Assembly (NCBI GenBank): GCA_027068365.1
Contig: JAMOTQ010000062.1
Span: 1-42,661, forward strand
Direction: 5' to 3'
Length of the DNA: 42,661 bases
Source: Methanocaldococcus sp.
Lineage (GTDB): Archaea; AGJL01; Methanococci; Methanococcales; Methanocaldococcaceae
A program made the position numbers and the translations under genes. The notes under the pieces are model-generated. The model searched no databases and was not told the DNA's origin. It saw only the letters and a list, made by a program, of their open reading frames with translations. Shown here in pieces: positions 13,753-31,218 of this stretch; position 1 is the stretch's first letter; each line of letters begins with the position of its first letter.

Positions 13753-16700
13753 TTAACCTAATAATCGTTCTAATGTAGGGATTGGGATTACTCTCTTTTT
13801 AATGTATTTTTTTAGTAAGATTTCTTCCCGTAATTCTTTCAAACGTGGGTTGTGAATAAGGGGATGTATTACTAAAATTCCCCAAGTATTTTCAATAGTT
13901 ACGTCATCATCTCTACGAATCACTACATTTACAATATCGAAAAAAGTATTAGTAAATTCAAATTCCAGTAGGGGATGTTTTTTAGAGTGTAGTAATTCTA
14001 TTAATTCACTTTTTTTAACTTTTTTGAGAATTCCTTCTTTATTTAATAGAAACAAATAGAAATTGTCATTACACTTGAGTAATTTTACACTGAGAGCCCC
14101 TGTTAATTTTTTGCCTGTTATTCTTTTGAAATCTTCAGGTTTTAAGTCTTTTAAACTAACACCTTCAGACTTTAAACCAGCATCTAAAGTGGCAATCCCG
14201 CCAGTCATAGGATATTCAGTTATTGTTTCTTCTACTTCATACTTTATATACTTCTTTTTAGCTTCCTTTAAAACTTTTTCAAGTATTTCAGTAGGACAAT
14301 TGCTAACATTAAATGTTATTTTTGCAGTACTATTACTGTCAATTTTAAATAAGGAAAGTGGGGGGAGTGTTATAATCCAATTACAAGGAACTGCTCCCAA
14401 ATCTCCTGCATAAACATGTAATTTATAGATGGGTTTATAGCCAAATTTTAAGAATAGAGTGTAAAGTTCTTTGTAATCATTATGATGATCTAAAAATGAT
14501 TTCTCAGTCTTTTTATTTAATTGAATTTGTTTAACATCTGGAAAGTAACCTTCACAATATATTATTTGTGGAGTAACTTTATACTTATGATTTAGGATAA
14601 CATTTTTTATTTGATAATAAAACTCCCACATTCTTGACAATACACTCCTTTTAAACATTTCATCTTTAATCATATTTTCATTAACTTGCATGACGTCAAA
14701 AAAGAATACATCTCTTACGACATCAAAGTATTTTGTATTTTTACTAAATTTTCCTCTTAATCTTTTAATAACTTGCCTAATATTTTCAATATTTTTATTA
14801 TTTTTGTAATAAAAGCTTTTGAATGAGTTTGGAAGGATTATTAAATACTTTTGTGTTTCTAAACTAACTCCTAATGATATTGAAGAAGTTCCAATAATAA
14901 CCTTATTCCTACAATCCCAATCTTTCAAATCATCAACTTTTATGTTAGAGTGTATTAACATTATATGATTGTCAGGCACTTTAACTCCACACTCTTTTAA
15001 AAATTCTTTCAACATTTCTTCTAATATCTCACAAAAAGATTTGTTATCACAGAATATTACAACTTCTCCATCTTTTAAAGCAGTAATAAAATCTTTTGGT
15101 ATTTTCCCCGATCTATTTAACATGTCAAACTTTTTGTTAATTTCCCTAATAAGCTGTTTGATTTGTTTGACAATATTTTTTTCAGTTAATAGAATTGGTC
15201 CAAATAAGTGGATTCTAAGTGGGAGCTCAAAATCTAATTTAAACATTGCAAGGTTTAAGTTGAACAATTTTCCACAATATAATTCTAATTCAACCTTATC
15301 CTTAGTATAATTACAAACTTCAAACTTTGGAATGGTTATATTAAAATCTACTGTGTCTAAATACTCGGGGACAATATTATTAATGTATGTTTTACCATTC
15401 TCAAAATAAACTTTTACTTCTTTTTTACTCTCATTTTCAACAATATATGAAGTTGTGGGGTGGCAAAATGCTTTTTCATTATTTTTAATCTTTTCCTCCC
15501 AATCTTTTAAAATGTCATAAAACTTTTTCAAGTCAGTAATGCTTGCATCTAAAAATACAAGTTTTGGTTTGTTAAAGTTTAATCCATTATTTTTTTCCAA
15601 CTTGGTAGTGCTTACATAATAATCATTCAATTGTAATATAAGCTCACAACATGAAATTACAAAGTCATCAGTAGAGTTAAAAAATTCGTCAATTATAATT
15701 AATTTGTATGTTTTGAATATATCCCTTAAAAGTCTTTCATCTTTTATAATATAAGGTAATGTTTGAGAGGTTATAGCTACTGCTTTTTTTACGTTAGAAC
15801 CTCCCTTTTTCAGTTTCTTATACAACTCTTCAGTAACTTTTTTCAGCTTATCTTTTGCACGTTTTAATTCTTTAATGTTAATGTAAAACGCTCCATTTTC
15901 TTTTTCTTGTTCTTGTATTTTTGTAGCGTAAATAACTTCAACTTCTCTCTCTTTAAATTTACCAGCAAAATCATTAATAATTCTTTTTCTTGGTGTGAAT
16001 AGTAATATAGGGTCACATTCTCTTGCAAAATTAACTAATGTTGTATTTTTCCCGGCTCCCTGTCCAGAGGCATTGATTATAATTTGTAAGTTTTCATTTT
16101 TTAATAATTCTGAGAAAATCTTCTCATGTAATTCTCTCTTAAACACTAAGGTTTTAATATATTTATTAGAGTGGGATGTTTTGGAGGGATGTTTTATCAA
16201 ATAATATCCCATGTTGTCATCTTTTTTTCTATCATTATTATTCACTCTTCTCCTACCCAAAAACAATTTCTTTTTATTTCCTTTTTTGCCATGTATGAGA
16301 TGATTACCTTTAATATATGCGTCTCCACTTGTAATCCACTCTAAAAATCTCTCACGACCAGCAAAACTTTTAAATTCTTCACTAGCATCAAAATATTCAT
16401 CTTTTAGTAATTTCTCATGAGCTAATTTTATAATGTCTTCCAAACTATAATAGAAGTTGTCAAGGTCATCCTGATTTTTGAAATCATAATAAAATATCAA
16501 ACCAGGAACTATCCAATACACATTTAAAGGATGTGCTGGGTTAACATACTCTTTTTCATATAAGATTTTGGCATAATTTAAAATTTTGAATAATTTTGTA
16601 AATATATTGCATATTTTTACAAAATTAGAGTAGGAAAGTTTTTTAATGTCTTCAAATTTTTGAATTATCAAGTCTAAAGAATGCTCATCAGTGTTTATAA

Positions 16701-17298
16701 ATCCACTGTAATCATAGTTAAACATTCCCTCCTCATTTAATCCCAAAAAGTCTCTCGTTATTGTTTTTAAATCTCCAACTCCTATTATATTATTATCGTT
16801 TAAAATTACAAAATCTGGTTGTTTATAGTCTTCAATCATTGGTTCAATTAGTATTTTCAAATCTTTTATTGATAGTTCTTTTTTAAAGTGTAAGTGTAAT
16901 AATTTAGCTAAGCCAACTCCAGAGTTGTAAAATCTAAAACATTTTGATAACAATTCATCATTAATATTCCTTAAATACTCCTCCTTTTGAAATTTATTAG
17001 TGTAATACTCTTGTTTTTTTATAACATAATCAACTAATGTTTCAAAGAATTCTTCACCATATCCTTTATAATCAATAATGTGTGTTTTGTTTTCCCAATC
17101 TTTTCCAATCAACTTTTTGGCATAATTGTAAATAGGGTGGTTTATAACCTCTCCATTCGAAATTTCCAGTTCTCCAAAATATTTTGTAAGTGTGTTATTG
17201 AATGAGATTCTCTTATGTCCCAATAATTCTAACAACCCTCCTTCAAAACCGGCTTGAAAGCTTAAACCAAGCAAGATTCCTTTTGTATTTTTAACCAT
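13753..17298 (-). CDS. PD-(D/E)XK nuclease-SF2 helicase fusion protein, partner of the PIWI-like gene
   Basis: An 1181-aa protein. Residues 161-178 show PD, 13 residues, then DLK in QPDFVILNDNNIIGVGDLKT, the classic PD-(D/E)XK nuclease signature. A helicase core begins near 405. The P-loop is NASGQGAGKNTT (K417 followed by Asn rather than Thr/Ser). Motif Ia is LLFTPRK, motif II IIIDEF (D537, E538), motif III FLDASIT (584-588). Motif V is GTSSISLGVSL (803-813) and motif VI RQVIKRLRG (841-849). About 330 residues of unknown fold follow. I infer a nucleic-acid translocase with a cutting domain acting on invading DNA or RNA. ATG follows GGGGGG; only 10 bp separate it from the upstream gene, so the two are one operon. 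Replication helicase of an integrated element is the main alternative. Confidence 0.6.
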   Translation of the reverse strand: MVKNTKGILLGLSFQAGFEGGLLELLGHKRISFNNTLTKYFGELEISNGEVINHPIYNYAKKLIGKDWENKTHIIDYKGYGEEFFETLVDYVIKKQEYYTNKFQKEEYLRNINDELLSKCFRFYNSGVGLAKLLHLHFKKELSIKDLKILIEPMIEDYKQPDFVILNDNNIIGVGDLKTITRDFLGLNEEGMFNYDYSGFINTDEHSLDLIIQKFEDIKKLSYSNFVKICNIFTKLFKILNYAKILYEKEYVNPAHPLNVYWIVPGLIFYYDFKNQDDLDNFYYSLEDIIKLAHEKLLKDEYFDASEEFKSFAGRERFLEWITSGDAYIKGNHLIHGKKGNKKKLFLGRRRVNNNDRKKDDNMGYYLIKHPSKTSHSNKYIKTLVFKRELHEKIFSELLKNENLQIIINASGQGAGKNTTLVNFARECDPILLFTPRKRIINDFAGKFKEREVEVIYATKIQEQEKENGAFYINIKELKRAKDKLKKVTEELYKKLKKGGSNVKKAVAITSQTLPYIIKDERLLRDIFKTYKLIIIDEFFNSTDDFVISCCELILQLNDYYVSTTKLEKNNGLNFNKPKLVFLDASITDLKKFYDILKDWEEKIKNNEKAFCHPTTSYIVENESKKEVKVYFENGKTYINNIVPEYLDTVDFNITIPKFEVCNYTKDKVELELYCGKLFNLNLAMFKLDFELPLRIHLFGPILLTEKNIVKQIKQLIREINKKFDMLNRSGKIPKDFITALKDGEVVIFCDNKSFCEILEEMLKEFLKECGVKVPDNHIMLIHSNIKVDDLKDWDCRNKVIIGTSSISLGVSLETQKYLIILPNSFKSFYYKNNKNIENIRQVIKRLRGKFSKNTKYFDVVRDVFFFDVMQVNENMIKDEMFKRSVLSRMWEFYYQIKNVILNHKYKVTPQIIYCEGYFPDVKQIQLNKKTEKSFLDHHNDYKELYTLFLKFGYKPIYKLHVYAGDLGAVPCNWIITLPPLSLFKIDSNSTAKITFNVSNCPTEILEKVLKEAKKKYIKYEVEETITEYPMTGGIATLDAGLKSEGVSLKDLKPEDFKRITGKKLTGALSVKLLKCNDNFYLFLLNKEGILKKVKKSELIELLHSKKHPLLEFEFTNTFFDIVNVVIRRDDDVTIENTWGILVIHPLIHNPRLKELREEILLKKYIKKRVIPIPTLERLLG

Positions 17299-17308
17299 AT
17301 TCCCCCCA

Positions 17309-20143
17309 CTAATAGAAGGTTTTATTTTTAGTTAAAGTTCTAACTGTAAATCTGCTCCTTCCGACATCTGGATGATAAGGGTCGAAAAGCCTCTCAGCAC
17401 CAATTTTTGAAGAGTATTCGGGAATTTCCGTATTTATACCGGAGAGTGTTAATAAAGTGTTAACAACATTTTGGAATATTCTTGTTTTCATTCCCTTTCC
17501 AAAATTAAGAATGTAGAAAAAGTGAGTATGATAATATAAAACTTCTTTATTACTTGGAGTGCTTCCAGTAGCTACCATGTAAAATGGTAATTGTTCAGAA
17601 CTGTTATTATTAAAGAGTGCTTCCAAAGTTTGTTGTAAATTAGGTAAGAAGTGATTTTTATATGATAAGATTAGTGTAGTCTTTACATTATTTTTAATTA
17701 TTTCATCAATACCATCACGTAAAAATTTGGTAGCATTTGGTAAGAATACTATAATAGTCTTGTTAGTCATATTTTTTAACGTTTGATATAATTTATTCTC
17801 TAAATCTTCTTCAATTTCATAAAGACTTTTTATCGTATTTATCCTATCAGGTAGAGGTTTAGACAAATCTTTTACAAATACTAATCCATCAAATTCAGTA
17901 ATTTTTTCCCTTAAATAGTTGATGACTTTATCCACATCAAAGGCATTAAAAACTTCCTCTTCTTTTATAACATCCCCATTTTTTAACCATTTTGTCAATT
18001 TTACGTAAATAACATTGTATTCTGCATCTTCACCATTTTTTGTATCACTCTTTGGGTTTAGATTTCTTGGATTTATGGTTATTGCTAAAACATTATCTGG
18101 GAGTGTTTCAAACCAAAGTTTGCTTTTTAAACTTTGTGATAAATATAGAATGTAATTGTATGATTGTGAAATAAGTCCAGCATTAGATGATGCTTTCTGA
18201 AATAAGTTTAAAAATAGTGCTGGCGTTCCAATGATTGTATTTTTATTCTTGAACTTGCCTATAATTATGTGATAATTATACCCTTTCTCATCAACATACA
18301 GCCCATAAGGTTTATAGTAGGATTTATGGTTAATAAATACGTTATTTTTGTTCCCTTTTAAATAATCAATGCACTCTTTACAATCTTTTTGTATCATCCA
18401 TTCTAAATTTGTTTTTAAATTTGAATCGTCTCCATTTTTATCATCTTCAAACTGTTGTGCATATAAATTAAAGTTATCTTGTTGAATGAATTGTAGCAGC
18501 ACGTTTTTTGAATTAATAATATCAAGCATGCTATACCAATACTTGTGTATTAATGTTTTAGTTTGTCTTTTTCCATTGTCAATTTTTATTAGGAATAAAT
18601 TAATCCCCTCTTTATTATCATTTAAAAACTCTCTTACAATAATCCCTGCATCGAGAATTGCTTTAAGGTTTGTGAAAAATTCAATCTCTCTATTAGAGAG
18701 TTGTCTTCTAAATTTAAGAGTTAATTTATTCTCATAATATAAATCATAAGGGATAGTATTGTAAAAGATTTCAATATTTTCCATTGGTAATTTAGCATTT
18801 ATTAACAAGTCCAAAACAAAGTGTTTTAGTATTATATCGTCATCAGATAACTTATACCAATCTTTGCTAACTGCATTTATGACAAATACTCTTACATTTT
18901 TGATAGGAAGAGTTTGTCTAAATTCTACATTATCAGTAAAAATTCTCTTAGTGGGATTTAAAATAAGTCCCTTACAATTAACTATTTCACAAATTTCTTC
19001 GGAGAGTTCTAAACAATTCCCTTTTATTAATGATAAAAACTCTTTTAGGATTTTTGGATATATCCTTTCTTTTAGGATTTTTTTATATTCTTTATTCTCA
19101 TATAATTTTATAAATTCATGTAGTAAGTCCGTATTATTTAACAAGTTTAATAAGTTTAGTCCATCAATAATCTTCCTCAACTTTGCCTTCAAGTCTTTTA
19201 ATTTGTTATGTATTCTTTTATTTTTCTTTTTATAATTATCACATTCTTTTTCAATTTCTGAGTATATTTTTATTAACTTTAGTATTCTAATTTGGTCAGT
19301 CCAACCTTCCCCAATGAGTGGAATACCATACTTATATGCGTTAGAAGATAGGTTTTTGCCAGCAATAAATGTTCCAAAAAATCTTGGAAAATTCTTAGCA
19401 CTCCACTGTTCTATAAACTCATCAACACCTATTTTTTCAAAAATTTCATTAAATTCTTCTTCATTTTTTAACCTCTCATATAATGTTACAAAATCTTCGT
19501 AAGCTTTACTAAGATTTTCAATTTTTATTATATAATTTTCCTCCCTAAAATCTCTAAAAGCATTTATAAAAATTGAATATATGTTTTTAAGGTTGGCAAA
19601 AATTGCTTTAAGTTTTTTATCAGTTTCCTTTTTTTCACATTCTTCTAAAGCTTTTAAGAACATGTTCATAGAAAAATCTTCAACATCTTGTTTTCTTAAA
19701 TTTTTTTCAGCTTCAAAGAAAACTGTTAGCATTTTTTGTTTTATTTTAGAGTCAATTTCTACCTCTGAAATGTCAACTTCTTCAAGTGTGTTACAAACCA
19801 TCCAAGTTATGATTTCAGAAGAGTTGGATTTAGAAAGTTCTTCAAGGGATAATCTTCCAATTTCTTTAAAATTTTCAAATAATCCAAACTTTTCAACATT
19901 ATTCAGATACTCCAAGACAATGTTCATAATGCTCTCTTTATCACTGTACAAGTATTTTATTCCATAATTTACAACCTTTTCAGGAGTTAAATTTAACTCC
20001 CTACAAACATTTAACACTAATTCAAAAAACTCCCGATTAGGAGTTAAACTAACGTACTCTAAATTTCCGTAATATTTTTTACACAATTCTTTTACAAATC
20101 TTTCAAAAATTGATTTATCATGATAAAATAATTTTTTGTTCAT
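17309..20143 (-). CDS. Candidate divergent Argonaute (MID-PIWI-like) protein, probably catalytically inactive
   Basis: A 944-aa protein with no family I can name outright. The N-terminal half (1-400) is helical and unassigned. From about 512 the order of elements resembles Argonaute MID-PIWI. It begins with a strand NLFLIKID, then a helix, then SKNVLLQFI (MID-like gI-x-Q-x-I). SYNYILYLSQSLKSKLW sits where PIWI proteins carry a helix ending in KlGGxPW. VLAITINPRN sits at the first catalytic-Asp strand but with Asn. NKTIIVFLPNATKF sits at the RDGR strand. TLILSYKNHFL, FYMVATGST and a closing helix plus EIPEYSSKIGAERLF correspond to the usual lPvtihYAd end. The first acidic residue and the RDG Asp appear lost, suggesting guide binding without cutting. 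GTG 20152 lies in the binding site GGTGGGG, so ATG 20143 is chosen. This is pattern reading, not an alignment. Confidence 0.4.
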   Translation of the reverse strand: MNKKLFYHDKSIFERFVKELCKKYYGNLEYVSLTPNREFFELVLNVCRELNLTPEKVVNYGIKYLYSDKESIMNIVLEYLNNVEKFGLFENFKEIGRLSLEELSKSNSSEIITWMVCNTLEEVDISEVEIDSKIKQKMLTVFFEAEKNLRKQDVEDFSMNMFLKALEECEKKETDKKLKAIFANLKNIYSIFINAFRDFREENYIIKIENLSKAYEDFVTLYERLKNEEEFNEIFEKIGVDEFIEQWSAKNFPRFFGTFIAGKNLSSNAYKYGIPLIGEGWTDQIRILKLIKIYSEIEKECDNYKKKNKRIHNKLKDLKAKLRKIIDGLNLLNLLNNTDLLHEFIKLYENKEYKKILKERIYPKILKEFLSLIKGNCLELSEEICEIVNCKGLILNPTKRIFTDNVEFRQTLPIKNVRVFVINAVSKDWYKLSDDDIILKHFVLDLLINAKLPMENIEIFYNTIPYDLYYENKLTLKFRRQLSNREIEFFTNLKAILDAGIIVREFLNDNKEGINLFLIKIDNGKRQTKTLIHKYWYSMLDIINSKNVLLQFIQQDNFNLYAQQFEDDKNGDDSNLKTNLEWMIQKDCKECIDYLKGNKNNVFINHKSYYKPYGLYVDEKGYNYHIIIGKFKNKNTIIGTPALFLNLFQKASSNAGLISQSYNYILYLSQSLKSKLWFETLPDNVLAITINPRNLNPKSDTKNGEDAEYNVIYVKLTKWLKNGDVIKEEEVFNAFDVDKVINYLREKITEFDGLVFVKDLSKPLPDRINTIKSLYEIEEDLENKLYQTLKNMTNKTIIVFLPNATKFLRDGIDEIIKNNVKTTLILSYKNHFLPNLQQTLEALFNNNSSEQLPFYMVATGSTPSNKEVLYYHTHFFYILNFGKGMKTRIFQNVVNTLLTLSGINTEIPEYSSKIGAERLFDPYHPDVGRSRFTVRTLTKNKTFY

Positions 20144-20291
20144 TAACCCCACCTTATTATCTTTTATATCAAATTTTAAAAAAGGAAGTATTTAAAGTTT
20201 TAAGATTATAAGTATTTCTAAAAACACTTTAATGGTCTCAAATACGTTAATACGTTAGTTCTTTTTTTTGTTGTTAATTTTTGGTGGATTG

Positions 20292-20607: not shown

Positions 20608-23600
20608 TTATACAAGTTTAAACAAATATCTCTTTTTTTCAGTTATATTTATGTTATTATAATATTTACTCACATCCATCCTTTTTCCATTTTTAATTAA
20701 GTATATTTTTCTATGTTCTTTGTTGAGAGGTTTATAAATCTCAAATACTATTGCATTTTTTTCATCTTTTCCAAGGTTACAGACGATATATAAATAATAT
20801 TTATCTTCATTTTCCATAGCAAATTTATATTCTGCTTCTGTAAGTTCTGCAATTGGTAATAATCCATTATGTCCTTTCACTTCGATATATTTCTCCTTTC
20901 CATTTTCAATAACCTTTATATCATAATGCTCATGTAAGGAAACATCCAAAACATCCCAAACTTTACCTTTATTTTCATACCCATATTTACTTGCTAATCT
21001 TTTTTCTTCAATATTCATTACAACATTCATAGCCAATTTCTCAATTTTCACAAGTTCTTCAAGAGGTAAAAAATTCCTATCCATTGCCTTTAAATCATTT
21101 TCATCTGTTAAAATAATATTATCCTTATCTAAACTTAAATTATCTATAATGTCTAAGGGAATGATTTTTTCAATTGAAAACTCATTCTCTGGGAGATAAT
21201 CAATAATTATAGGGTCATCAATACTTATTCTCAAATTCTTAAATAATTTACCATCTTTCAAACCTAAATCTCTGAGATTTTCGTAATTTGAAATTCTTTT
21301 ATCTATGTTATTTATAATACTTCTGACATGAGTGTAAATCTTTCCTTTAATAGCCAATATTTGACTCTTATCAGATTTTTCCATATAGTTTGTGAAAAAT
21401 AAATCTCTGCTAAAAATTGTCGTTAAGTATTTTAACAATTCAACACTTGTCATTAACTTGGTATTTTTTTCTTTGTGAGAGGCTATTACTGGAATTTCCC
21501 AGACAACCTCCCTATTTTCATTTAATACTTTTACAAAAAACAAATACTCCCTATTTTTAAATGGGTTTTTTACAACGATTCTTGATATTTGTAAATCATC
21601 ATCATTTTTTGATTTTATGATTTGATATAACCTATTTTGGGCATATATATTTTCTCTTAAAACTTTCTCTTTAAATGTGTTTAGAATTTTCCCAATCTTT
21701 TCAATCTCCAAATAACTTTCACTTTGGATAAGTTTTAAAACTTCATTTTTAATTTTTTCAGCACGTTCTTCTGGAAAAATACCCATCATTTTTAGCTTAT
21801 TCCTAATATTTTTTAGTGTTTTGACAATTTCTTCTGTATAACTATTTAAGTCCTCCATTATTGCTGAAATTATAATATCATATTCAGAAAAGTTTTTTAT
21901 GTATGCAAATTCCTCTAAGTTAAATAGAGTTTCAGCATTTGCAATATATATCTCTTTACCTATTGCTAATTGATTATCAAGTGCAGTTTTAATATTCATG
22001 ATTTTTTTATACAAGCTATTAAGCAGCTCCAAATCCATTCTATTTGAAAGGAAAATATTATAAATAGACACATCCTTTTCTTGCCCTAACCTCCAAATTC
22101 TTCCAATTCTCTGTTCTAATTTTATAGGACTCCATGGGGAATCATAATTTACCAAAACACTTGCAATTTGTAAATTAAGTCCTTCAGAAGCAACATCTGT
22201 TGCCAGTAAAATTTTTCCATACTCTTCAAATTTTTTATTAATCTCCTCAGTAATATTCTCCATCCTATTTTTGTCCTCTCCTGAAAGCGTTAATATTTCA
22301 TTTGTATCTATGTCAATACCATAGTTGTTTAAATACTTAGGCAGATTTTCTTGAAGATATTTGAGAGTATCAACGTATTCAGTAAATACTACAATTTTTT
22401 CATTATTTTTAATATGTTCTGCAATAATTTTTGCTAAAGCGTCAATTTTACTATCTTTTTTGACTATTATGTTAGTTGTTGTTTTAAGGAGATTTTCAAA
22501 TAATTCTTTTTGCCCTTGGCTTAAATATGGTGAATATTTATCAACAATATTATTTATTATGTCAGATATTTCCCTATATTCTTCAAATTCCATTTCTTCC
22601 AAACTTAGTGAGAAGAGGTTTTGAATATCCTCTGACACATTAATATCATCAGTTTTTAAAATGTTACTTTTTATAATCCTATTTAGTGTTTCAATTGCTG
22701 CTTTATAACTTGAAGATGCCCTCTTACCTAAAATCACTGCTAAAAGTGCTATTGGAGAGTTTCTTTTTGCATTTTTCAATATATTTTTAAGGGTGTCTTC
22801 AAGAAGGACAAAAAATCTTTTTTCTTCTTCTGATATATCCACTACTACTGCATTAAACTGACAATCCTTAAAAACTCTTTTATTCTCAAGAGCATTTACT
22901 AATTTTTTCGTTCTTCTAAAAACTAATATGTCATGGGTTTTAGAGTAGAAATTTTGAGTATTTAATCTATCAAAATCATTTATAAGTGTGGGGTCTAACA
23001 TTTTTAATCTGTATAGGTAATCTTGAGGGTCTCCTCTGTGTGGAGTTGCAGAAAGTAAAAGCATATTTCTTACTTTTTTTGAAAGTTTTTCTACTAATTT
23101 TCCTCTTTGAGTATTTTTAGTAATGTTGTGGGCTTCATCAACAATAACTAAATCCCAATCAATTTGCAATATTTTATCAACATACCTTTTTGCAAGGTCA
23201 ATTGAAATTATAATATAAACCGCAGAATCATAATACTGCAAAGAATTTTTAATATTATTTATATCATTTCCATCTTTAATAATTCTTGGAATTCCACCAA
23301 CTCTCTTTATTTCAGATTCCCACTGTTCTCTTAAAATTTTTGGAGTTAAAACCAAAATCTTTTTTATTCCTTCTTTTAGTTCTAAGTATCTCGCTATTGC
23401 AAGAGATTCTATTGTTTTACCCAAACCAATCTCATCTGCAATTAAAAAACGGACTGGGCGGAGAAGCATAGCATTGTATAGGAGATAAATTTGGTGTATA
23501 AATGGTTTTATTTCTTTTTTTGATGCTGGATGATTTAAAGCATAGAAGAATAGTAGAGGGTCGTGCAAAAATACCTTTCTTGTGAGATAGTTTTTTATCT

Positions 23601-23610
23601 TTTCTTGCAA
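20608..23610 (-). CDS. SNF2-family helicase with DUF3883-like nuclease C-terminus (DrmD-like)
   Basis: A 1000-aa SF2 ATPase of the SNF2/RapA type. Motif I is ADEIGLGKT (58-66), motif II VDEAH (157-161), motif III LSATPHRGDPQDYL. Motifs V and VI are ATDVASEGLNLQIA and EQRIGRIWRLGQ. Near the C-terminus, YDIKVIENGKEKYIEVKG (E910, K912) followed by LTEAEYKFAM and YYLYIV matches DUF3883/NOV_C, a restriction-endonuclease-like fold. It resembles the DrmD helicase of class 1 DISARM and the helicases found beside DUF499/DUF1156 genes. It probably translocates on unmodified invading DNA. It begins at TTG after GAGGGGATG; an ATG inside that site is out of frame. It is the last gene of the four-gene operon. 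Confidence 0.75.
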   Translation of the reverse strand: MQEKIKNYLTRKVFLHDPLLFFYALNHPASKKEIKPFIHQIYLLYNAMLLRPVRFLIADEIGLGKTIESLAIARYLELKEGIKKILVLTPKILREQWESEIKRVGGIPRIIKDGNDINNIKNSLQYYDSAVYIIISIDLAKRYVDKILQIDWDLVIVDEAHNITKNTQRGKLVEKLSKKVRNMLLLSATPHRGDPQDYLYRLKMLDPTLINDFDRLNTQNFYSKTHDILVFRRTKKLVNALENKRVFKDCQFNAVVVDISEEEKRFFVLLEDTLKNILKNAKRNSPIALLAVILGKRASSSYKAAIETLNRIIKSNILKTDDINVSEDIQNLFSLSLEEMEFEEYREISDIINNIVDKYSPYLSQGQKELFENLLKTTTNIIVKKDSKIDALAKIIAEHIKNNEKIVVFTEYVDTLKYLQENLPKYLNNYGIDIDTNEILTLSGEDKNRMENITEEINKKFEEYGKILLATDVASEGLNLQIASVLVNYDSPWSPIKLEQRIGRIWRLGQEKDVSIYNIFLSNRMDLELLNSLYKKIMNIKTALDNQLAIGKEIYIANAETLFNLEEFAYIKNFSEYDIIISAIMEDLNSYTEEIVKTLKNIRNKLKMMGIFPEERAEKIKNEVLKLIQSESYLEIEKIGKILNTFKEKVLRENIYAQNRLYQIIKSKNDDDLQISRIVVKNPFKNREYLFFVKVLNENREVVWEIPVIASHKEKNTKLMTSVELLKYLTTIFSRDLFFTNYMEKSDKSQILAIKGKIYTHVRSIINNIDKRISNYENLRDLGLKDGKLFKNLRISIDDPIIIDYLPENEFSIEKIIPLDIIDNLSLDKDNIILTDENDLKAMDRNFLPLEELVKIEKLAMNVVMNIEEKRLASKYGYENKGKVWDVLDVSLHEHYDIKVIENGKEKYIEVKGHNGLLPIAELTEAEYKFAMENEDKYYLYIVCNLGKDEKNAIVFEIYKPLNKEHRKIYLIKNGKRMDVSKYYNNINITEKKRYLFKLV

Positions 23611-23631
23611 TTTTCATCCCCTCTAACAATT

Positions 23632-24090
23632 TTAGATTTCTTCAACCACCAAAAAACATTTTGCAATTTTTAATAATTTTCTTCTATTATTATGTTCCCA
23701 ATACCTATTTCTAAAAGTTGATGCCCAATAACGTAAAGCTAATGGTTCCATAGAAAGAATATGGTCTTCTAATTTTCCCCACATTGTATTATCTTTTAAT
23801 GCTTGCATAATCATGGCATAAACAAATAATCTTAGATATGCATAATCATCATCAGTTTTTAATGTTATTCTTTTTTTACCAGAAACTTCAAAACCAAAGT
23901 GTTTAGCAAAATTAATAAACTCTGGGAGAAATACTCTTGCAGTTCCTTCAATTTTACCTTTTATATATTTACCGTCTTCAAGAGGTATTATTGGGATAAA
24001 CTCTGCTAATTTTTGTTTTTTTACAATTGGTAATTTTATTGGCTTAATATATTTAAGCTTAACCACATATTGAGTGTTCTTACTCTCCAC
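23632..24090 (-). CDS. Small defence-operon protein of unknown function (152 aa)
   Basis: A basic, soluble protein lying between the DUF499 ATPase and the SNF2 helicase, 21 bp from the helicase start. Its C-terminal half is helical and aromatic (LRLFVYAMIMQALKDNTMWG, then ALRYWASTFRNRYWEHNNRR), with several Trp, Tyr and Arg residues that could line a nucleic-acid surface. The N-terminal half is strand-rich. Related operons in other prokaryotes often carry a small gene (for example DUF3780) in this place; I cannot confirm that this is the same family. The binding site GAGGTGAT lies before the ATG region. Function is inferred only from its position. Confidence 0.55.
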   Translation of the reverse strand: MESKNTQYVVKLKYIKPIKLPIVKKQKLAEFIPIIPLEDGKYIKGKIEGTARVFLPEFINFAKHFGFEVSGKKRITLKTDDDYAYLRLFVYAMIMQALKDNTMWGKLEDHILSMEPLALRYWASTFRNRYWEHNNRRKLLKIAKCFLVVEEI

Positions 24091-24160
24091 AGCATCACCT
24101 CACAAAAAAGAAAAATAGAGTAAGAAAATACACTCTAAATGTATAAAAAACTACTTAAAA

Positions 24161-27100
24161 TCAACATTTTTTAATTTTAAATATTACTTTTTCATTTAAG
24201 CATTTAAGTTTCTCAAATATTAAATCATCAATCCTTACTTCATCTGTAAAAATAACGTCCACATCTAACTTCGCTTTATGTTCCATAACCTCCTCTATCT
24301 CTTCAATAAGATATTTTACAACATCGAGAGAAAGATTATTAAAATCTGCTTTAAAGTATTCATCGTTTTCAATAATAAAGACTCCTCTAACCTTAGCATT
24401 TAAGTTTTCAGGAATGAGGTTTAAATCATCATAGGATTTGATACCCTTTATTTCTAATAATTTTCCTCCTTTTAAGTTTTCAGATAATTCATGAACTTCT
24501 ACGATATCAGTTCTTGGAGTAAGGGTTATTCTATCAGTTTTTACGACACCATCTTCAGATACTGCCCTTAGTTTATAAGTTTTTTTGGTTTCAGGAATTT
24601 TAATGTGCCACGTTGTTTCATAAGGAGCCTTTCCATGGTCTATATCTAATTCTCCTTCTTCAACTTCAAGATTCACGTCAAAACCACGGCCTTTTAAGGG
24701 TGTTATTACTACTTTTATATCCACATTTTCTCCTGGTTTTCCTTCAATGTTATGTCTATCTAATTTCAAAGAAAATTCATTTCTTTCTCCAATAGTCTTT
24801 TCTTCAGTTTTTCTTACTATATAGCCATTTATTACTAAGTCCACAAATTCGGGTTTGACAACAAAACCCTCTTCTGTCTCTTCAACAAGCTCCCTTAATG
24901 GCAATGACTCAGAATCTGAAATATAAACTTCATACCAAACTTTTATATACTTATTATCAATAACTTCATCTCTCTCCTCTTTTAAAATCTGATTTATTTG
25001 TTTATTTAATGCTTTTATTTGAGGCAAAATTATGTCATTTTCTTTTATGTCATCGAGAGGAACCCCAGCTTCATTATAATTTGGTATGTTTTGATAGATT
25101 CTTTTAAATAAAATTCTTCCGTCTCTTTCAATACCAATTTTTAAATCTTTAACGCCCTCTTTTATTGCTTCTTTTAATTGCTCATCAGTAATAAATGGAA
25201 GTTTTGTATTTGTTCTAATAATACTTCTAAGCTCTGAAAATTGTATTGGTTTATTAAAAGTTATATTTACTTCATTTAAATAATATTCAAGACCTTCAAA
25301 AGTTAGATTGGATGGGATTTTTCCCCATTCAACCAGTGCAGAATACACATTTTCAAGTATTGATTTAGATGTTGGAGTAGCATCAACAATCTCCACATCA
25401 TTATCTTTAGGATATGCAATTTTTTTAAATACACTTGCCACAAATTCATCAAACTCTGCTTTTGCATCATCTTCAATACTCCTTACCATACTTGTTTGTA
25501 TCTGAACAACTTCTTCCCCATAAGATTTATATTTTGCTTTAATATCTCCTTTCACTTTATCACAAGCCATTATACGGGCTGTTATTTCAAGTAGTTTATT
25601 TAGGGATTTATCTGCATAACAAACAGTTATTGTATTTCTATATGTTCTTGTTCCAGTTCCATACTGATAAATTATTCTGTAAAGTGTAAATTTATCAACA
25701 TCATCTCTTATGAGTATTTGCAATTTATAATTCTCATTATCTTGAAATTCTTGTGGGTCTCTTGACACTACAATATCATTCTTTTTGAAAAATGTTATAT
25801 TATTTCCAATTTTTTTAGTCCTTAGACCCTTTCCTTCAACAGCAAATTTTTTAACAAATTCCTCAAGTTTCTTATGAACGCTAACTATATTGAGAGTTAA
25901 CAACTCTTCTTTCTTGCTTTCAACCATTTGAGATACATTTGCAACTCTCCAAAACCAGAAGATTCCATCCTTTTTGTTTAGATATATAAATGATGAGCTT
26001 TTTTCAATTTCACTTATAGTGTTTGGGATATCAGTTAATTGCAATGCATGTTTTTCAAAAAAACTAATTTCATAAACTGCCCTTGCAATACTATCCTTTT
26101 TTGGAAAGCCCTCAAGTGGTGTTGGGGAGTCATAAGGATAGGTTTTTAAAAATATGTATCTTAAAATAATCTCTGCCAATTCTGGCTTTGAAAATCTTTT
26201 GAATTTTTCAAGGGATAAATCTACATCCAATACTGCTCCTCCATAGTCAGCAAATATTTGATTCTTCCCAAACAATATTCCTTTTAGTTTTTCATTTCTT
26301 GGGTTTATATGATATGGCATTATTAAGGTTGGGAACTCTTCTTCTTGTAATAGGTTTCTTACAACAATTCTTGTTATTCTAACCATATCCCTTGTTTTTT
26401 GCAAGTTCCCTCTTTCAACAATAGTCCTCAGTGTTGCTATATAATCTGGATGGAATGGATAGGTTTTTGATAAGTTTCCTTCAAATCTTCCAAATATTTC
26501 AGTATTTGAATAAGCCTCTCTGTATTTTTCAATTATTTTCTCTTTAAAATCTTTATCTATGCTTTCAAAAATCCTTTTCTTTAAAATCTCTACAATCTCT
26601 CCTCCAGAAATGCCTTCAGTTCTTAGTGGAGAGTAGAGTTCTGCTCCCCCCACTCTCTCAACCGCTCTATGGAGAGAAAGAACTATCTCCTTATTATATC
26701 CTTTTTCAACTTTTTCCCCATCTTTTTCCATTGGTAAGGTTAAAATCATAATGCTGTCAGTTCCAATTAAGGCAGTGGATAAGGCATCAAAGAACTTACA
26801 GATATTTTTTGCATATCTTCTATCATCTTCATTCCCACTGTTGTATAAGTTGTCTATATAATGAACAATCTCATCAACTAAAAATACTACCTTATTTCCT
26901 TTTAAAAGCTCTCTAATCGTATCTATTGTAGGGACTGTTAAGTTTTTATCGTCATTTTCAACTATAGAGTATTTTCCTAAACAGTGCCCTATATACCCCC
27001 ATAATGTTTTGACTTCGTATGCTCCAAAGTTTAATGGATTGCTTGGTTGTCCTAATTTTCCTTTACCATATATTGGAAGTATTTTTATGTTTTGATTTTG

Positions 27101-27475
27101 AAGGTCTTTTAATTTTATACCTATTTCTTTTATCTTCTCTTTTTTATCTTCAGGATAATCTTTTAGAGTATTTTCATCAGTAAGAGAGTCAGGATTATTA
27201 ATTGCATGATAGATTGTTAATATTGTATGTGTTTTCCCTCCCCCAAAGAGAGAGTATATTAAGAATATATTATGCCTCTCTTTCCCGCTTAGAGTGTTTA
27301 TAAGCCTGTCAAGTATTTGCACCATAGAATCAGTAAAGTAAGTCCTTTTAAAGAATTCTTCTGGTTCTGTATAAATCCTATGGGCTGTTTTATTAATAAC
27401 ATCCCCCAATTCAGGAGCTACTTGCATATCTAAAGTTTCATCTAAAACATCCTCCCAAACTTTTAACTTCTGCAT
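24161..27475 (-). CDS. DUF499 AAA+-type ATPase of a methylation-linked defence system
   Basis: A 1104-aa ATPase of the DUF499 family (COG1483). It starts MQKLKVWEDVLDETLDMQ, with the family's characteristic statement that binding occurs at an early helical region. Walker A is LFGGGKTH (76-83) and Walker B VVFLVDEI (D201, E202). TRDMVRITRIVVRNLL forms the AAA lid. The C-terminal 250 residues are beta-rich (an Ig-like segment around GENVDIKVVITPLKGRGFDV) plus a small alpha-beta tail. DUF499 proteins occur with DUF1156 methyltransferases and helicases in defence islands. ATG 27475 follows GGGGGGATTAAT; an upstream in-frame start 17 codons earlier is disfavoured. It lies 81 bp after the methyltransferase. 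Confidence 0.85.
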   Translation of the reverse strand: MQKLKVWEDVLDETLDMQVAPELGDVINKTAHRIYTEPEEFFKRTYFTDSMVQILDRLINTLSGKERHNIFLIYSLFGGGKTHTILTIYHAINNPDSLTDENTLKDYPEDKKEKIKEIGIKLKDLQNQNIKILPIYGKGKLGQPSNPLNFGAYEVKTLWGYIGHCLGKYSIVENDDKNLTVPTIDTIRELLKGNKVVFLVDEIVHYIDNLYNSGNEDDRRYAKNICKFFDALSTALIGTDSIMILTLPMEKDGEKVEKGYNKEIVLSLHRAVERVGGAELYSPLRTEGISGGEIVEILKKRIFESIDKDFKEKIIEKYREAYSNTEIFGRFEGNLSKTYPFHPDYIATLRTIVERGNLQKTRDMVRITRIVVRNLLQEEEFPTLIMPYHINPRNEKLKGILFGKNQIFADYGGAVLDVDLSLEKFKRFSKPELAEIILRYIFLKTYPYDSPTPLEGFPKKDSIARAVYEISFFEKHALQLTDIPNTISEIEKSSSFIYLNKKDGIFWFWRVANVSQMVESKKEELLTLNIVSVHKKLEEFVKKFAVEGKGLRTKKIGNNITFFKKNDIVVSRDPQEFQDNENYKLQILIRDDVDKFTLYRIIYQYGTGTRTYRNTITVCYADKSLNKLLEITARIMACDKVKGDIKAKYKSYGEEVVQIQTSMVRSIEDDAKAEFDEFVASVFKKIAYPKDNDVEIVDATPTSKSILENVYSALVEWGKIPSNLTFEGLEYYLNEVNITFNKPIQFSELRSIIRTNTKLPFITDEQLKEAIKEGVKDLKIGIERDGRILFKRIYQNIPNYNEAGVPLDDIKENDIILPQIKALNKQINQILKEERDEVIDNKYIKVWYEVYISDSESLPLRELVEETEEGFVVKPEFVDLVINGYIVRKTEEKTIGERNEFSLKLDRHNIEGKPGENVDIKVVITPLKGRGFDVNLEVEEGELDIDHGKAPYETTWHIKIPETKKTYKLRAVSEDGVVKTDRITLTPRTDIVEVHELSENLKGGKLLEIKGIKSYDDLNLIPENLNAKVRGVFIIENDEYFKADFNNLSLDVVKYLIEEIEEVMEHKAKLDVDVIFTDEVRIDDLIFEKLKCLNEKVIFKIKKC

Positions 27476-27556
27476 ATTAATCCCCCCATTTCTAACATTT
27501 TTTATTAAAATATGGAATATAACCAACTATAAGGATATAATAAAATATATAGGAAA

Positions 27557-30541
27557 TTAAAACGCTTTGCCTTCCAAAAATCTTACCAATCTTCTTATCA
27601 AATAGATTTCATAAGTTTTATTTTTTTGTAGGATTTTATCTATCTCACTGTCTTTTTTACCTGCATATATTTCCTTAAATACACTTTTATAGTATTTATT
27701 TATTAGTTTGGCAATATTTGTTGCTTCATCAACCTCTGTTGGGTATTTGTTCTTCAATTCTTCAAGTTTAGATTTAAAGGCATCTATTGGATATGCAAAG
27801 GCGTAATATTCAAGTAAGTGAAGGATGTCTATTGATGTTTTTATTTCTGGATTTATTGGATTTATGCCCTTTTCAATTAAGAACTGATAGAGGTTTTTAT
27901 TGTTGAGTTCTTTTATTAAGTCGGGAGAGTTTAATGTAAATCCCTTATTTTCTTCTTTTATTAGTTTGTATTCAACTGCTGTTCTTGCATCAATTCCAGT
28001 TGAGATATTTAATAAGATTAAATCTCCACTACCTAATGTTTTACTACCAAATAGGATTTTGTAGGTTGTATAGAAAAGGGCAGGTTTTGAAGAGATTTTT
28101 AAAGTTCCTTCTTTTTCTTTTGAAATGGCATCTATAATGCTATATATTGTTAATGGATAGACATACTTATCGAGGATGTCTTTTGTCGTTAGTTTTCCTT
28201 CTGGACTTACAATTTCATTGTATTGGGTTATCTCTTCTAAGATACCAGCCATTACCCCATACAGTAAATCTAAATCATGCTGTCCGTGTTTTATTAATAG
28301 TTCTGCTGTTTGTCTTCCTTTATCTCTTAGTTTTGGTATTAAGGTTGAGATTAACGCCTTATCTTTTAGAGTTTTCTTTTTCCAGACGGCAATTATTGAA
28401 GTGTCTAAGGAGAGTTTGCCTCTTGATACAATGCTTTGTTTTGATTCTGTTGTGAGAGGTAAAGCCCTCGTTATCGTTAGTTTTGCCCTCTTCCATCCTG
28501 ATTCTAAGAGATTCGCCCATGAGTCGGGATTTGTGTGTGCGTAGTAAGTTATTAATAAACCATCATCTTTTAAGTGGTTTTTCATAGATATGAATGCCTG
28601 TGAGAAGAGATTTTCAAAGTGTTTTTTTGCTATTTCTTTTTTATCTTTTAAATCCATAAATCTACCCGCATTTTCAGAAACCTCTTTTTTGGCAAATTCT
28701 TGCCATTGTGTTTTTATCTCTTTGTATTTTTTGCCTATCTTTTTGAAGAATGCTTCTTTATGGTATCTTGGAATTAGTTTGTTGTTTTCAACATCAGACA
28801 AAGCCCTTTTAAGCCAGACATAATAAAAGTCAGATAGTTCGGTGTAAGGGACATCATCGGCATAGGGAGGGTCGGTAACGATAATATCAAATTGCTCTCC
28901 TAAGTTTAATGAGGTTGCATCTCCTTGAATGATTTTTATATTTGAGGAGTTATTATTTACTTTATTAATAAAATCATTTAAATTATTTGGCTTATTTGAA
29001 AGTGCAGAGGTTAGGTATTCTAAACCTCTAATAGTTGTTCTTAAAGTGCTTGGATAGGTTAATGGTATATTTAAAATTGGACATATTTCACACCAATTCC
29101 ATTGCATTGCTATTCCTCTATTAGTGAGAGTATGGGCTACTTTGTTTAAACTCCACGAGCCAGCATTCCATAATGTAGTAATAGTATTATAATCTAAATG
29201 TTTTAACAAAGCAATGCTCAAATAAGTAGCAATTGCCTCTGAATACTTAAAAGCCCTCTCCTCACTCCACCCCTCTCTTATTTTCTTCTCCTCAACTCTT
29301 TTTCCAACTTCTCTAATTAATCTTGTAATTTTTACCAAAGTTAATAACTGCCTTGGATTAAAGAGTTTGTAAAACTTGTTAAACCCCCACATAAATATAC
29401 TTAATGCCCCTCCACCACTTGCAGAATAATTCCATAAGTTCTCATTTGGCACATCAACATCTCCACTCTCTATAAGCTTCTTAACCTTCTCCTTAGCAAT
29501 CCCCAATTTTTTATTATCCTCTAAGGTTGCCTTTTCAAAAATCAAATTCCCATCTTCAATTTTAACCTTAACCAACAACCTCTGCCTTGCAAATCTCTCA
29601 TCCCCTTCATGATATTTCTTCAAAGCAAATTTTACATAAAATTCCAATTCCTTACCTTTAACCTTATTTAAGTAATGATTTCCTTCTTCATCTGCAAATT
29701 TTATTAAGTTGCCACAAAACAAACAGGTTACTTGACTCTTCCTTGACTCAATATTAGCATTAGGAACTTCAAACTCTAAACTACCAATCTTTATTTTATT
29801 CTTATCAACCCTTGCATCCTCTAACTTTAAATTATTCTCCTCTGCAATTTTATTAACATCTACAACCTCTATATCAATGCCATCCTCTGTTTTAACCGCC
29901 CTCATAAAAGCCAATCTTTTATAACCCTTTTTATTATTTTTAACTCTTGCTAACCAATAATTACCAATTAAAGGAGTCCATCTGCCACAGTGAGGGCATT
30001 TAATCTCCCAAGTTCCAATATAAACAGCAACATCATCCTCATAAAGTTCTCTAATATCTTCATCCTCTTTCAACCTTTCAGTTATCCAATTTCCCCATTT
30101 CTCAACATCTTTAACTAAACTCTTGCCAAACTCCTTAGGATACTCTAAAACTGATTTTAGAAATATATAGGTTGTAGGCAATAACTCAACTGCTGTAACA
30201 TCTAAGCCCAATCTTAAACCTTCCAAAGGTATAGAACCAAAACCAGCAAATGGGTCTAACAGCTTTTTTCCTTCAAAATACTTTTTCCAATCATTTGGAA
30301 TTCTTGGGTTAAACCTGTGAGGCGTTTTTTCATCAAGGCATATTGCATTTTTAAACCTCTCCACATCAATATCATAAGGCAATAGAGAGCCGGCAATAAC
30401 ACCCCTTGTCCCAATTAATGGTTTTCTTGTCCAATAAAATACCATCTCCCAATGTGGAGGTCTTGCCCCTCCTTTCTCCTTCTCACTCTTCTCATTAATC
30501 TCTCTTATTGGAAACTTTGGATTTTCAATAAATCTTTCCAT
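27557..30541 (-). CDS. DUF1156 DNA methyltransferase with zinc ribbon (COG1743)
   Basis: A 994-aa putative DNA adenine (or N4-cytosine) methyltransferase. The DUF1156 head has KGGARPPHWEMVFYWTRKPL. The SAM motif I is LLDPFAGFGSIPLEG (DPFAGFGS at 96-103) and the catalytic motif IV is IVTDPPYADDVPY (DPPY at 557-560). Two cysteine pairs, CPHCG (182-186) and CLFCG (273-277), form an inserted zinc ribbon, and WCEICP (483-488) adds a third pair. It is far longer than a simple methylase, so it likely includes target-recognition and docking regions. It probably marks host DNA so that the SNF2/DUF499 proteins spare it. It is the first gene of the operon; its leader overlaps a mobile repeat that may supply the promoter. 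Confidence 0.88.
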   Translation of the reverse strand: MERFIENPKFPIREINEKSEKEKGGARPPHWEMVFYWTRKPLIGTRGVIAGSLLPYDIDVERFKNAICLDEKTPHRFNPRIPNDWKKYFEGKKLLDPFAGFGSIPLEGLRLGLDVTAVELLPTTYIFLKSVLEYPKEFGKSLVKDVEKWGNWITERLKEDEDIRELYEDDVAVYIGTWEIKCPHCGRWTPLIGNYWLARVKNNKKGYKRLAFMRAVKTEDGIDIEVVDVNKIAEENNLKLEDARVDKNKIKIGSLEFEVPNANIESRKSQVTCLFCGNLIKFADEEGNHYLNKVKGKELEFYVKFALKKYHEGDERFARQRLLVKVKIEDGNLIFEKATLEDNKKLGIAKEKVKKLIESGDVDVPNENLWNYSASGGGALSIFMWGFNKFYKLFNPRQLLTLVKITRLIREVGKRVEEKKIREGWSEERAFKYSEAIATYLSIALLKHLDYNTITTLWNAGSWSLNKVAHTLTNRGIAMQWNWCEICPILNIPLTYPSTLRTTIRGLEYLTSALSNKPNNLNDFINKVNNNSSNIKIIQGDATSLNLGEQFDIIVTDPPYADDVPYTELSDFYYVWLKRALSDVENNKLIPRYHKEAFFKKIGKKYKEIKTQWQEFAKKEVSENAGRFMDLKDKKEIAKKHFENLFSQAFISMKNHLKDDGLLITYYAHTNPDSWANLLESGWKRAKLTITRALPLTTESKQSIVSRGKLSLDTSIIAVWKKKTLKDKALISTLIPKLRDKGRQTAELLIKHGQHDLDLLYGVMAGILEEITQYNEIVSPEGKLTTKDILDKYVYPLTIYSIIDAISKEKEGTLKISSKPALFYTTYKILFGSKTLGSGDLILLNISTGIDARTAVEYKLIKEENKGFTLNSPDLIKELNNKNLYQFLIEKGINPINPEIKTSIDILHLLEYYAFAYPIDAFKSKLEELKNKYPTEVDEATNIAKLINKYYKSVFKEIYAGKKDSEIDKILQKNKTYEIYLIRRLVRFLEGKAF

Positions 30542-30565: not shown

Positions 30566-30580
30566 GGAATATATAGTTCT
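30566..30580 (-). promoter_or_regulatory. Candidate promoter of the DUF1156 operon inside the repeat end
   Basis: On the minus strand, AAAAGAACTATATATTCC reads as a BRE-like purine run followed by a TATA box (CTATATAT). It lies about 25-30 bases before ATG 30541, which would give a start just before the GAGGGGACAAA binding site. Most of it is the terminal repeat of the mobile element, so the element would supply the promoter. Confidence 0.4.
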
Positions 30581-30745
30581 TTTCAAAATATTTTGAAAGA
30601 AACTTTAAGAAAGTTTCGTCAAATAAAGTTTTCCTATCTTTCTTAAAGGGTTATTCAGGATATATAAGGCACTGATGAACTCTTTCCTAATGGAAGGAGT
30701 TCAAACTTCATTAATAAATTTTATTCACTTTTGAAAAGAACTATA
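30572..30745. repeat. Left MITE-like element (174 bp)
   Basis: It has perfect 17-bp terminal inverted repeats (TATAGTTCTTTTCAAAA at the left, its complement at the right end) and no coding capacity. Inside are an 18-bp palindrome TTTCAAAATATTTTGAAA (30581-30598) and a long hairpin GAACTCTTTCC / GGAAGGAGTTC with a TAAT loop (30677-30702). It also has a 62-bp segment (30599-30660), absent from the other copy, that starts with its own stem-loop GAAACTTT-AAG-AAAGTTTC (30599-30617). The copy at 31052-31163 is the same element inverted. Size, termini and hairpins are those of a non-autonomous transposon; I see no transposase of its own here. Confidence 0.75.
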
Positions 30746-30755
30746 TAATTATGCT

Positions 30756-31076
30756 TTGGAGTATTTATTATTACCTTATGAAATATCCCAATTGATAAAT
30801 AATAAGAAGTTAGGTTTATCTGTTGAACAAACTATAAGGCAGTGGATTAATGTTGAAACAGATGGGTTGAGGTTTTTAATAGCAAATATGCCAGAGGATT
30901 TAGATGAAAATAAGATATATGAGATTTTAAATAAGTTTAAGGATAATATTAAGGTTAAAGATTATGAAATTATTAAAAGAGAGTTAATTAAGGAATTCAA
31001 GTTTTTGGTGGAAAATGAGATTCTATTTTATGATGTGATTAATGGTATAATTATAGTTCTTTTCAAAAGTGAATAA
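30756..31076 (+). CDS. Unknown 106-aa protein between two inverted repeats
   Basis: A small acidic, helical protein with segments such as LSVEQTIRQWINVETDGLRF and LIKEFKFLVENEILFYDVIN. It has no cysteine cluster, membrane span or signal peptide. I do not recognise the family. It sits almost exactly between two inverted copies of a MITE-like element, like cargo of a composite transposon. Its last eight codons and stop (IVLFKSE, TAA) lie within the right copy, so its C-terminus was formed or replaced by the element. It starts at TTG; there is an in-frame stop at 30732. A repeat-derived TATA-like sequence (AACTATATAATT, 30740-30750) lies just before the start, giving a leaderless or very short leader. 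Confidence 0.5.
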   Translation: MEYLLLPYEISQLINNKKLGLSVEQTIRQWINVETDGLRFLIANMPEDLDENKIYEILNKFKDNIKVKDYEIIKRELIKEFKFLVENEILFYDVINGIIIVLFKSE

Positions 31077-31163
31077 AATTTATTAATGAAGTTTGAACTC
31101 CTTCCTAATGGAAGGAGTTCATCCGTGCCTTATATATTTCAAAATATTTTGAAAAGAACTATA
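31052..31163. repeat. Right MITE-like element (112 bp), inverted copy
   Basis: The same 17-bp terminal inverted repeats as the left element, in opposite orientation. About 79 of 85 bases match across the shared 85-bp arm, and the terminal palindrome (31137-31154) is identical. A perfect 11-bp stem GAACTCCTTCC / GGAAGGAGTTC with a TAAT loop lies at 31095-31120. It lacks the 62-bp segment of the left copy. It overlaps the 3' end of the small gene between them. Flanking bases do not show a convincing longer target duplication. Confidence 0.75.
31095..31120. terminator. Hairpin inside the right element
   Basis: Perfect 11-bp stem with 4-base loop, just after the stop of the 106-aa gene. It could fold in DNA or RNA. 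Archaeal termination usually depends on U-tracts and FttA, and no long T run follows, so a role in termination is only possible; recognition by a transposase is at least as likely. Confidence 0.3.
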
Positions 31164-31218
31164 AACCAACCTCAATTATTGAATGGTTTTGCTATAAAAG
31201 AAATTTAAAATAAATTAA

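Follow-up and report, generated by a model that had tools for sequence, protein, structure and literature searches.

A two-gene unit found in ten archaeal genomes, composed of an Argonaute-like protein (P) and a nuclease-helicase (H), looks like an unrecognised functional relative of the bacterial plasmid-destroying system DdmDE. In DdmDE, DdmE is a guide-binding, inactive Argonaute-like sensor, and the helicase-nuclease DdmD is recruited to degrade the target (PMC12409362). We lean towards the view that P and H together eliminate DNA in the same manner, as a system of two components. P, a divergent and probably slicer-dead Argonaute-like protein, would bind a short nucleic-acid guide and locate complementary invader DNA. 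It would then recruit or license H. As an ATP-driven SF2 helicase, H would load on the opened DNA, and its N-terminal PD-(D/E)XK nuclease would degrade it.

The pair was analyzed in the window, i.e. the whole stretch of 42,661 nucleotides, which is contig C62 of the 1.38-Mb genome of a thermophilic, methanogenic Methanocaldococcus. P (17309..20152, minus strand) has 947 amino acids when read from a GTG codon and 944 when read from the ATG at 20143. The ATG is the likelier start because GGTGG lies just upstream of it. H (13753..17298, minus strand, 1181 amino acids, ATG start) lies 10 bp downstream of P. A sequence-only reading of this DNA had proposed a two-gene unit with a 10-bp gap; both open reading frames were confirmed, and all peptides quoted for P were present in the translation in the order given. 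The features are as follows.

17309..20143, minus strand: P, divergent Argonaute-like protein, 944 amino acids (homology to the Thermococcaceae P family and predicted fold of that family)
19301..19390, minus strand: conserved block FPRFFG...YGIPLIGEGW of P, residues 255-284 of the 947-residue form (family alignment)
18509..18673, minus strand: MID-like part of P, residues 494-548, with LKAILD..., NLFLIKID and TLIHKYWYSMLDIIN (by alignment with the L012 P model, in which it corresponds to strand 383-391 and helix 400-419)
17312..18181, minus strand: putative PIWI (RNase H-like) part of P, approximate and the weakest assignment (alignment to the Thermococcaceae model)
17357..17413, minus strand: C-terminal signature SSKIGAERLFDPYHPDVGR of P, residues 914-932 (family alignment)
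13753..17298, minus strand: H, predicted nuclease-helicase, 1181 amino acids (motifs and SF2 fold matches)
16765..16818, minus strand: nuclease motif PD-(x13)-DLK, residues 161-178 of H, preceding the helicase (motif and predicted strand/helix order)
16045..16071, minus strand: Walker A motif ASGQGAGKN of H, residues 410-418 (motif)
14752..14778, minus strand: SF2 motif VI RQVIKRLRG of H, residues 841-849 (motif)

Pfam gave nothing credible for P and only a sub-threshold Helicase_C match for window H; PADLOC and NCBIfam named neither protein. Neither window protein matched PHROGs. When compared directly by sequence, the two window proteins had no match in genome contigs, viral contigs, plasmids, phages or PDB sequences; in the PDB sequence search nothing was found for P, and the H profile returned weak generic helicase matches only. 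No Rfam family and no tRNA were found within the window, and no description of the P-H family was found in the literature searched. The family was reached solely through searches of whole related genomes.

Among 36 genomes of the phylum, one H homologue was detected (G007; 33% identity, E = 3e-45). A two-sequence H profile applied to 394 archaeal genomes reached a further family, which we name Thermococcaceae on the basis of gene content. With a four-sequence profile, H was found in 8 of 94 Thermococcaceae genomes from three genera; a weak match in G082 is not H and was excluded from this count. In all eight carriers, the gene directly upstream encodes a protein of 727-823 amino acids and overlaps H by a few bases. 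When a profile of this upstream protein, P, was run against the same 94 genomes, exactly the same eight were retrieved. Because P and H occur in one and the same set of Thermococcaceae genomes, always adjacent, they are a co-inherited unit, and its distribution is patchy. Together with the window and G007, both from the Methanocaldococcus group, the carriers amount to ten genomes in two archaeal families. The sequence-only reading had suggested looking for the pair in other archaea, and its occurrence there is supported. P comes first in nine of the ten loci, the exception being G007, in which P lies convergently beside H. Close Thermococcaceae gene pairs are under purifying selection (dN about 0.01-0.03, dS 0.08-0.22, dN/dS about 0.1-0.2). 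The label "archaeal" is provisional, the profile searches having covered archaeal genomes and viral contigs. A weak H match in G132 (L047) proved to be an ordinary DEAD-type helicase without P, and weak matches in G194 and G082 were discarded because these genomes lack an H-like gene paired with a P-like one.

The relationship of window P to the Thermococcaceae proteins was evaluated by profile comparison. A plain hmmsearch with the P profile gave a result for window P that was marginal relative to shuffles; therefore, hhalign with shuffled controls was used. The Thermococcaceae P profile scored 57.2 over residues 212-548 of window P, whereas the highest score among 100 shuffles was 26.6 and the reversed sequence reached 23.0. 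At the level of sequence profiles, window P is a significant homologue of the Thermococcaceae family. The blocks FPxF.G...Y..PL.GEGW, LKA..D and T..H.Y.Y..L are common to both, and the C-terminal S..GA.R.F....PDV.R also follows in order. The PIWI half of window P was placed by extending the hhalign alignment. The two halves of G007 P, taken alone, scored near shuffle level; the protein was accepted because of its position, its shared MID block and C terminus, and the adjacent H. An alignment using the N-terminal half of G007 P misplaces the end of that half and was left out of modelling.

One AlphaFold2 model was calculated per family, and the fold of P rests on a Thermococcaceae protein, L012 P, to which window P is tied by homology. 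The L012 P model, built from eight sequences, had a mean pLDDT of 71 and a pTM of 0.70. A Foldseek search against the PDB yielded 21 matches at E<=1e-3, the best with an E-value of 9.6e-6 and a probability of 1.00. Twenty of them were Argonaute or PIWI chains, among these TtAgo, KmAgo, PliAgo, CpAgo, MpAgo, SPARTA, MIWI and MILI. Since the Argonaute matches had low TM-scores of 0.2-0.3, weight was placed on the uniformity of the matches and on their E-values. Model confidence was low in the PIWI part. The MID portion of L012 P was fitted by strand 383-391, helix 400-419 and strand 427-433 with an invariant Gln430, corresponding to Q566 in window P. The RNase H-like run consisted of strands 529-566, helix 575-587, strand 592-598, helix 602-611 and strand 615-618. 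By prediction, the P family has a MID plus an RNase H-like PIWI fold, which window P would share by homology over residues 212-548. The proposal that P is MID-PIWI-like was borne out to the extent that nearly all fold matches of its family are Argonautes. The Piwi profile PF02171 did not match P in any of the ten genomes. Active slicers carry a DEDX tetrad. The absence of tetrad-like acids common to window and Thermococcaceae P, in a PIWI part for which both alignment and model are weak, suggests that P is probably slicer-dead.

The remaining Foldseek match was chain D of the yeast Mediator kinase module, which we read as Med13, a protein built around a PIWI module (PMC3702460). This match, the extreme divergence of P and the differing RNase H-like acidic residues of window and Thermococcaceae P would also suit a restriction-type system in which P senses DNA structure or modification without a guide, using its Argonaute fold as a scaffold or to sense duplexes, and cutting is left to H. 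Such a guide-free system seems unlikely to us: the best kept part of P is the MID-like core with the invariant Gln and nearby aromatic residues, as would be expected if the end of a guide were bound.

In H, the nuclease motif PD...GD(L/F)K is kept in every one of the ten homologues, although its spacing is longer in G007, and the SF2 motifs are complete in all but one, which lost Walker A through a deletion. This conservation and the recurrence of the gene pair in ten genomes go beyond what chance would produce. The occurrence of PD-(x13)-DLK and SF2 helicase motifs in a single chain, as the sequence-only reading had it, was verified for window H (residues 161-178 for the nuclease motif). On motif evidence, H appears to combine a PD-(D/E)XK nuclease and an SF2 helicase in one polypeptide. 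The elements predicted around the nuclease motif (helix, strand with PD, strand with DxK, helix, strand) are compatible with a PD-(D/E)XK core; this putative domain is assigned from the motif and the element order, and it gave no separate fold match. Fold matches of the H model (pTM 0.43) were the SF2 helicases XPB, Brr2 and RecQ, at about 1e-7. The C-terminal ~270 residues carry a G(I/V)..HP signature. Not a single column of conserved cysteine was present in the alignment of the ten H proteins; therefore, H is not an iron-sulphur helicase of the DinG type.

The last result bears on pPIWI-RE, the system with which the sequence-only reading had compared the pair. Like P-H, pPIWI-RE joins a PIWI-like protein with a helicase and an REase-type nuclease. 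It differs in being bacterial and in having its REase and its DinG Fe-S helicase encoded separately, for a total of three genes in the order REase-DinG-PIWI, PIWI being last (PMC3702460). P-H has two genes, P first, and neither this triad nor a conserved cysteine cluster in H was found. Moreover, none of the pPIWI-RE Pfam models (e.g. PF13032, PF13111, PF18157) matched any P (hmmscan against Pfam-A, E<=1). The kinship was abandoned on these grounds, and we consider it very improbable that the adjacency of a PIWI-like protein to a helicase with an REase-type motif marks an archaeal branch of pPIWI-RE.

A closer functional likeness, which the sequence-only reading did not mention, exists to DdmDE. 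It also consists of two genes: one product is Argonaute-like, with catalytic activity predicted to be absent, and the other unites an SF2 helicase with a PD-(D/E)XK nuclease in one chain (PMC12409362). The systems differ in domain order, since the nuclease is N-terminal in H (161-178, before Walker A at 410-418) and C-terminal in DdmD. In addition, P precedes H, and the P-H carriers are archaeal. DdmD and DdmE were absent from the PDB sequence matches of P and H and were unnamed among the fold matches listed, one of which, 8xih, is labelled only "protein-DNA complex". Given the reversed domain order and the lack of a named DdmD or DdmE entry among the matches listed, P-H is DdmDE-like rather than a member of DdmDE.

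The reading of P-H as a DdmDE-like elimination system draws on the strict co-occurrence of P and H, the predicted Argonaute-like fold of the P family, the motifs of H and its SF2 fold matches. It is also consistent with the dN/dS of about 0.1-0.2, the patchy distribution and the restriction-type operon next door in the window, and the division of labour has a precedent in DdmDE (PMC12409362). Counted against it were the low TM-scores, the low-confidence PIWI part, the lack of a nuclease fold match, and the location of most Thermococcaceae copies amid housekeeping genes. We tentatively entertain the further idea that P-H is a separate, archaea-specific Argonaute-guided DNA elimination system, in which a highly diverged Argonaute-like protein was joined by an independently assembled, nuclease-first H, so that hyperthermophiles arrived at the DdmDE mechanism by convergence.

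Conventional archaeal Argonautes (MjAgo, PfAgo) resemble P in overall fold (MjAgo 5g5s, E = 2.1e-3) and live in the same host families, but PF02171 detects them and not P, and 8 of the 10 P-H genomes have no PF02171 match. A survey of pAgo operons described, in general terms, orthogroups with DEAD helicase and PD-(D/E)XK motifs (PMC6299218). These operons are similar in that an inactive pAgo stands alongside a nuclease or helicase; they differ in that pAgo sequence models miss P, and the likeness is one of general description.

If the DdmDE-like reading is true, Argonaute plus helicase-nuclease interference, studied so far as bacterial DdmDE, reaches hyperthermophilic archaea in a different domain arrangement. 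The thermostable proteins of Methanocaldococcus and Thermococcaceae would be handy for structural and biochemical work. P also illustrates that Argonaute relatives can escape current defence models. As it is invisible to PADLOC, Pfam and NCBIfam, model-based surveys, such as one of 7747 archaeal genomes from 2026 (PMC12988326), would be expected to miss it.

Most Thermococcaceae P-H copies lie among housekeeping genes and not in obvious defence islands. Several copies stand beside such genes, and two Thermococcaceae H proteins are weakly similar in their helicase core to the phage DNA helicase family PHROG 16 (E about 1e-5). Both observations could mean that the pair serves replication or repair, either for the cell or for an integrated element, instead of defence. 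We hold this to be improbable: the pair occurs in just 8 of 94 Thermococcaceae genomes, the partner of H is Argonaute-like, and the locus was lost or damaged in G102 and G007 without apparent harm. Nor was a viral, phage or plasmid homologue found in the viral contigs, plasmids and phages searched; profile scans of viral contigs and comparison of the Thermococcaceae proteins with plasmids gave no homologues, and comparing folds with those of viral proteins produced no convincing match.

In G102 (L013), H has lost Walker A to an in-frame deletion of 84 bp, while the rest of the gene shares 99% identity with its G401 counterpart. The P gene of G007 is interrupted by a palindrome-ended element of 293 bp (L005, 5826-6118), of which five identical full copies are present in that genome and a related copy on contig C149 of the window's own genome. 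The element gave a below-threshold match to transposon-linked sense overlapping transcript RNA and resembles, we infer, an IS200/IS605-type MITE. When the ten carrier genomes were searched with PF02171, matches were obtained in G102 and G007 only, neither at the P-H locus. The two genomes with a conventional Argonaute are hence the same two that have a damaged P-H. For two classes of two genomes out of ten, complete coincidence has a probability of 1/45, and the association was spotted post hoc; redundancy or incompatibility between the two systems is a possible explanation, to be taken as a lead, not a result.

In the window, P-H adjoins an operon (20608-30541) encoding SNF2/NOV_C, a 152-residue protein, DUF499 and a DUF1156 methyltransferase, resembling the Hma/DUF499-type candidate defence systems in PADLOC. 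The defence-type operon that had been noted next to the pair is thus present, and both units lie between proS and DUF2112/DUF2111. Five relatives keep the psmB-proS order, but upstream of proS they have other genes, which are conserved among the five. In G007 (L052), genes for ATPase-like proteins of 1041 and 374 amino acids are inserted near this place, upstream of proS; with the island of the window, this makes the proS site a candidate hot spot for insertions. The pair stands beside infB in four Thermococcaceae genomes, which belong to two genera (L012, L031, L033, L034), possibly a preferred site or a sign of shared ancestry, and other sites are used elsewhere. At the island edge in the window (30572-31164), inverted and direct repeats with TGAACTCCTTCC palindromes are clustered, perhaps representing a small mobile element or its remnant.
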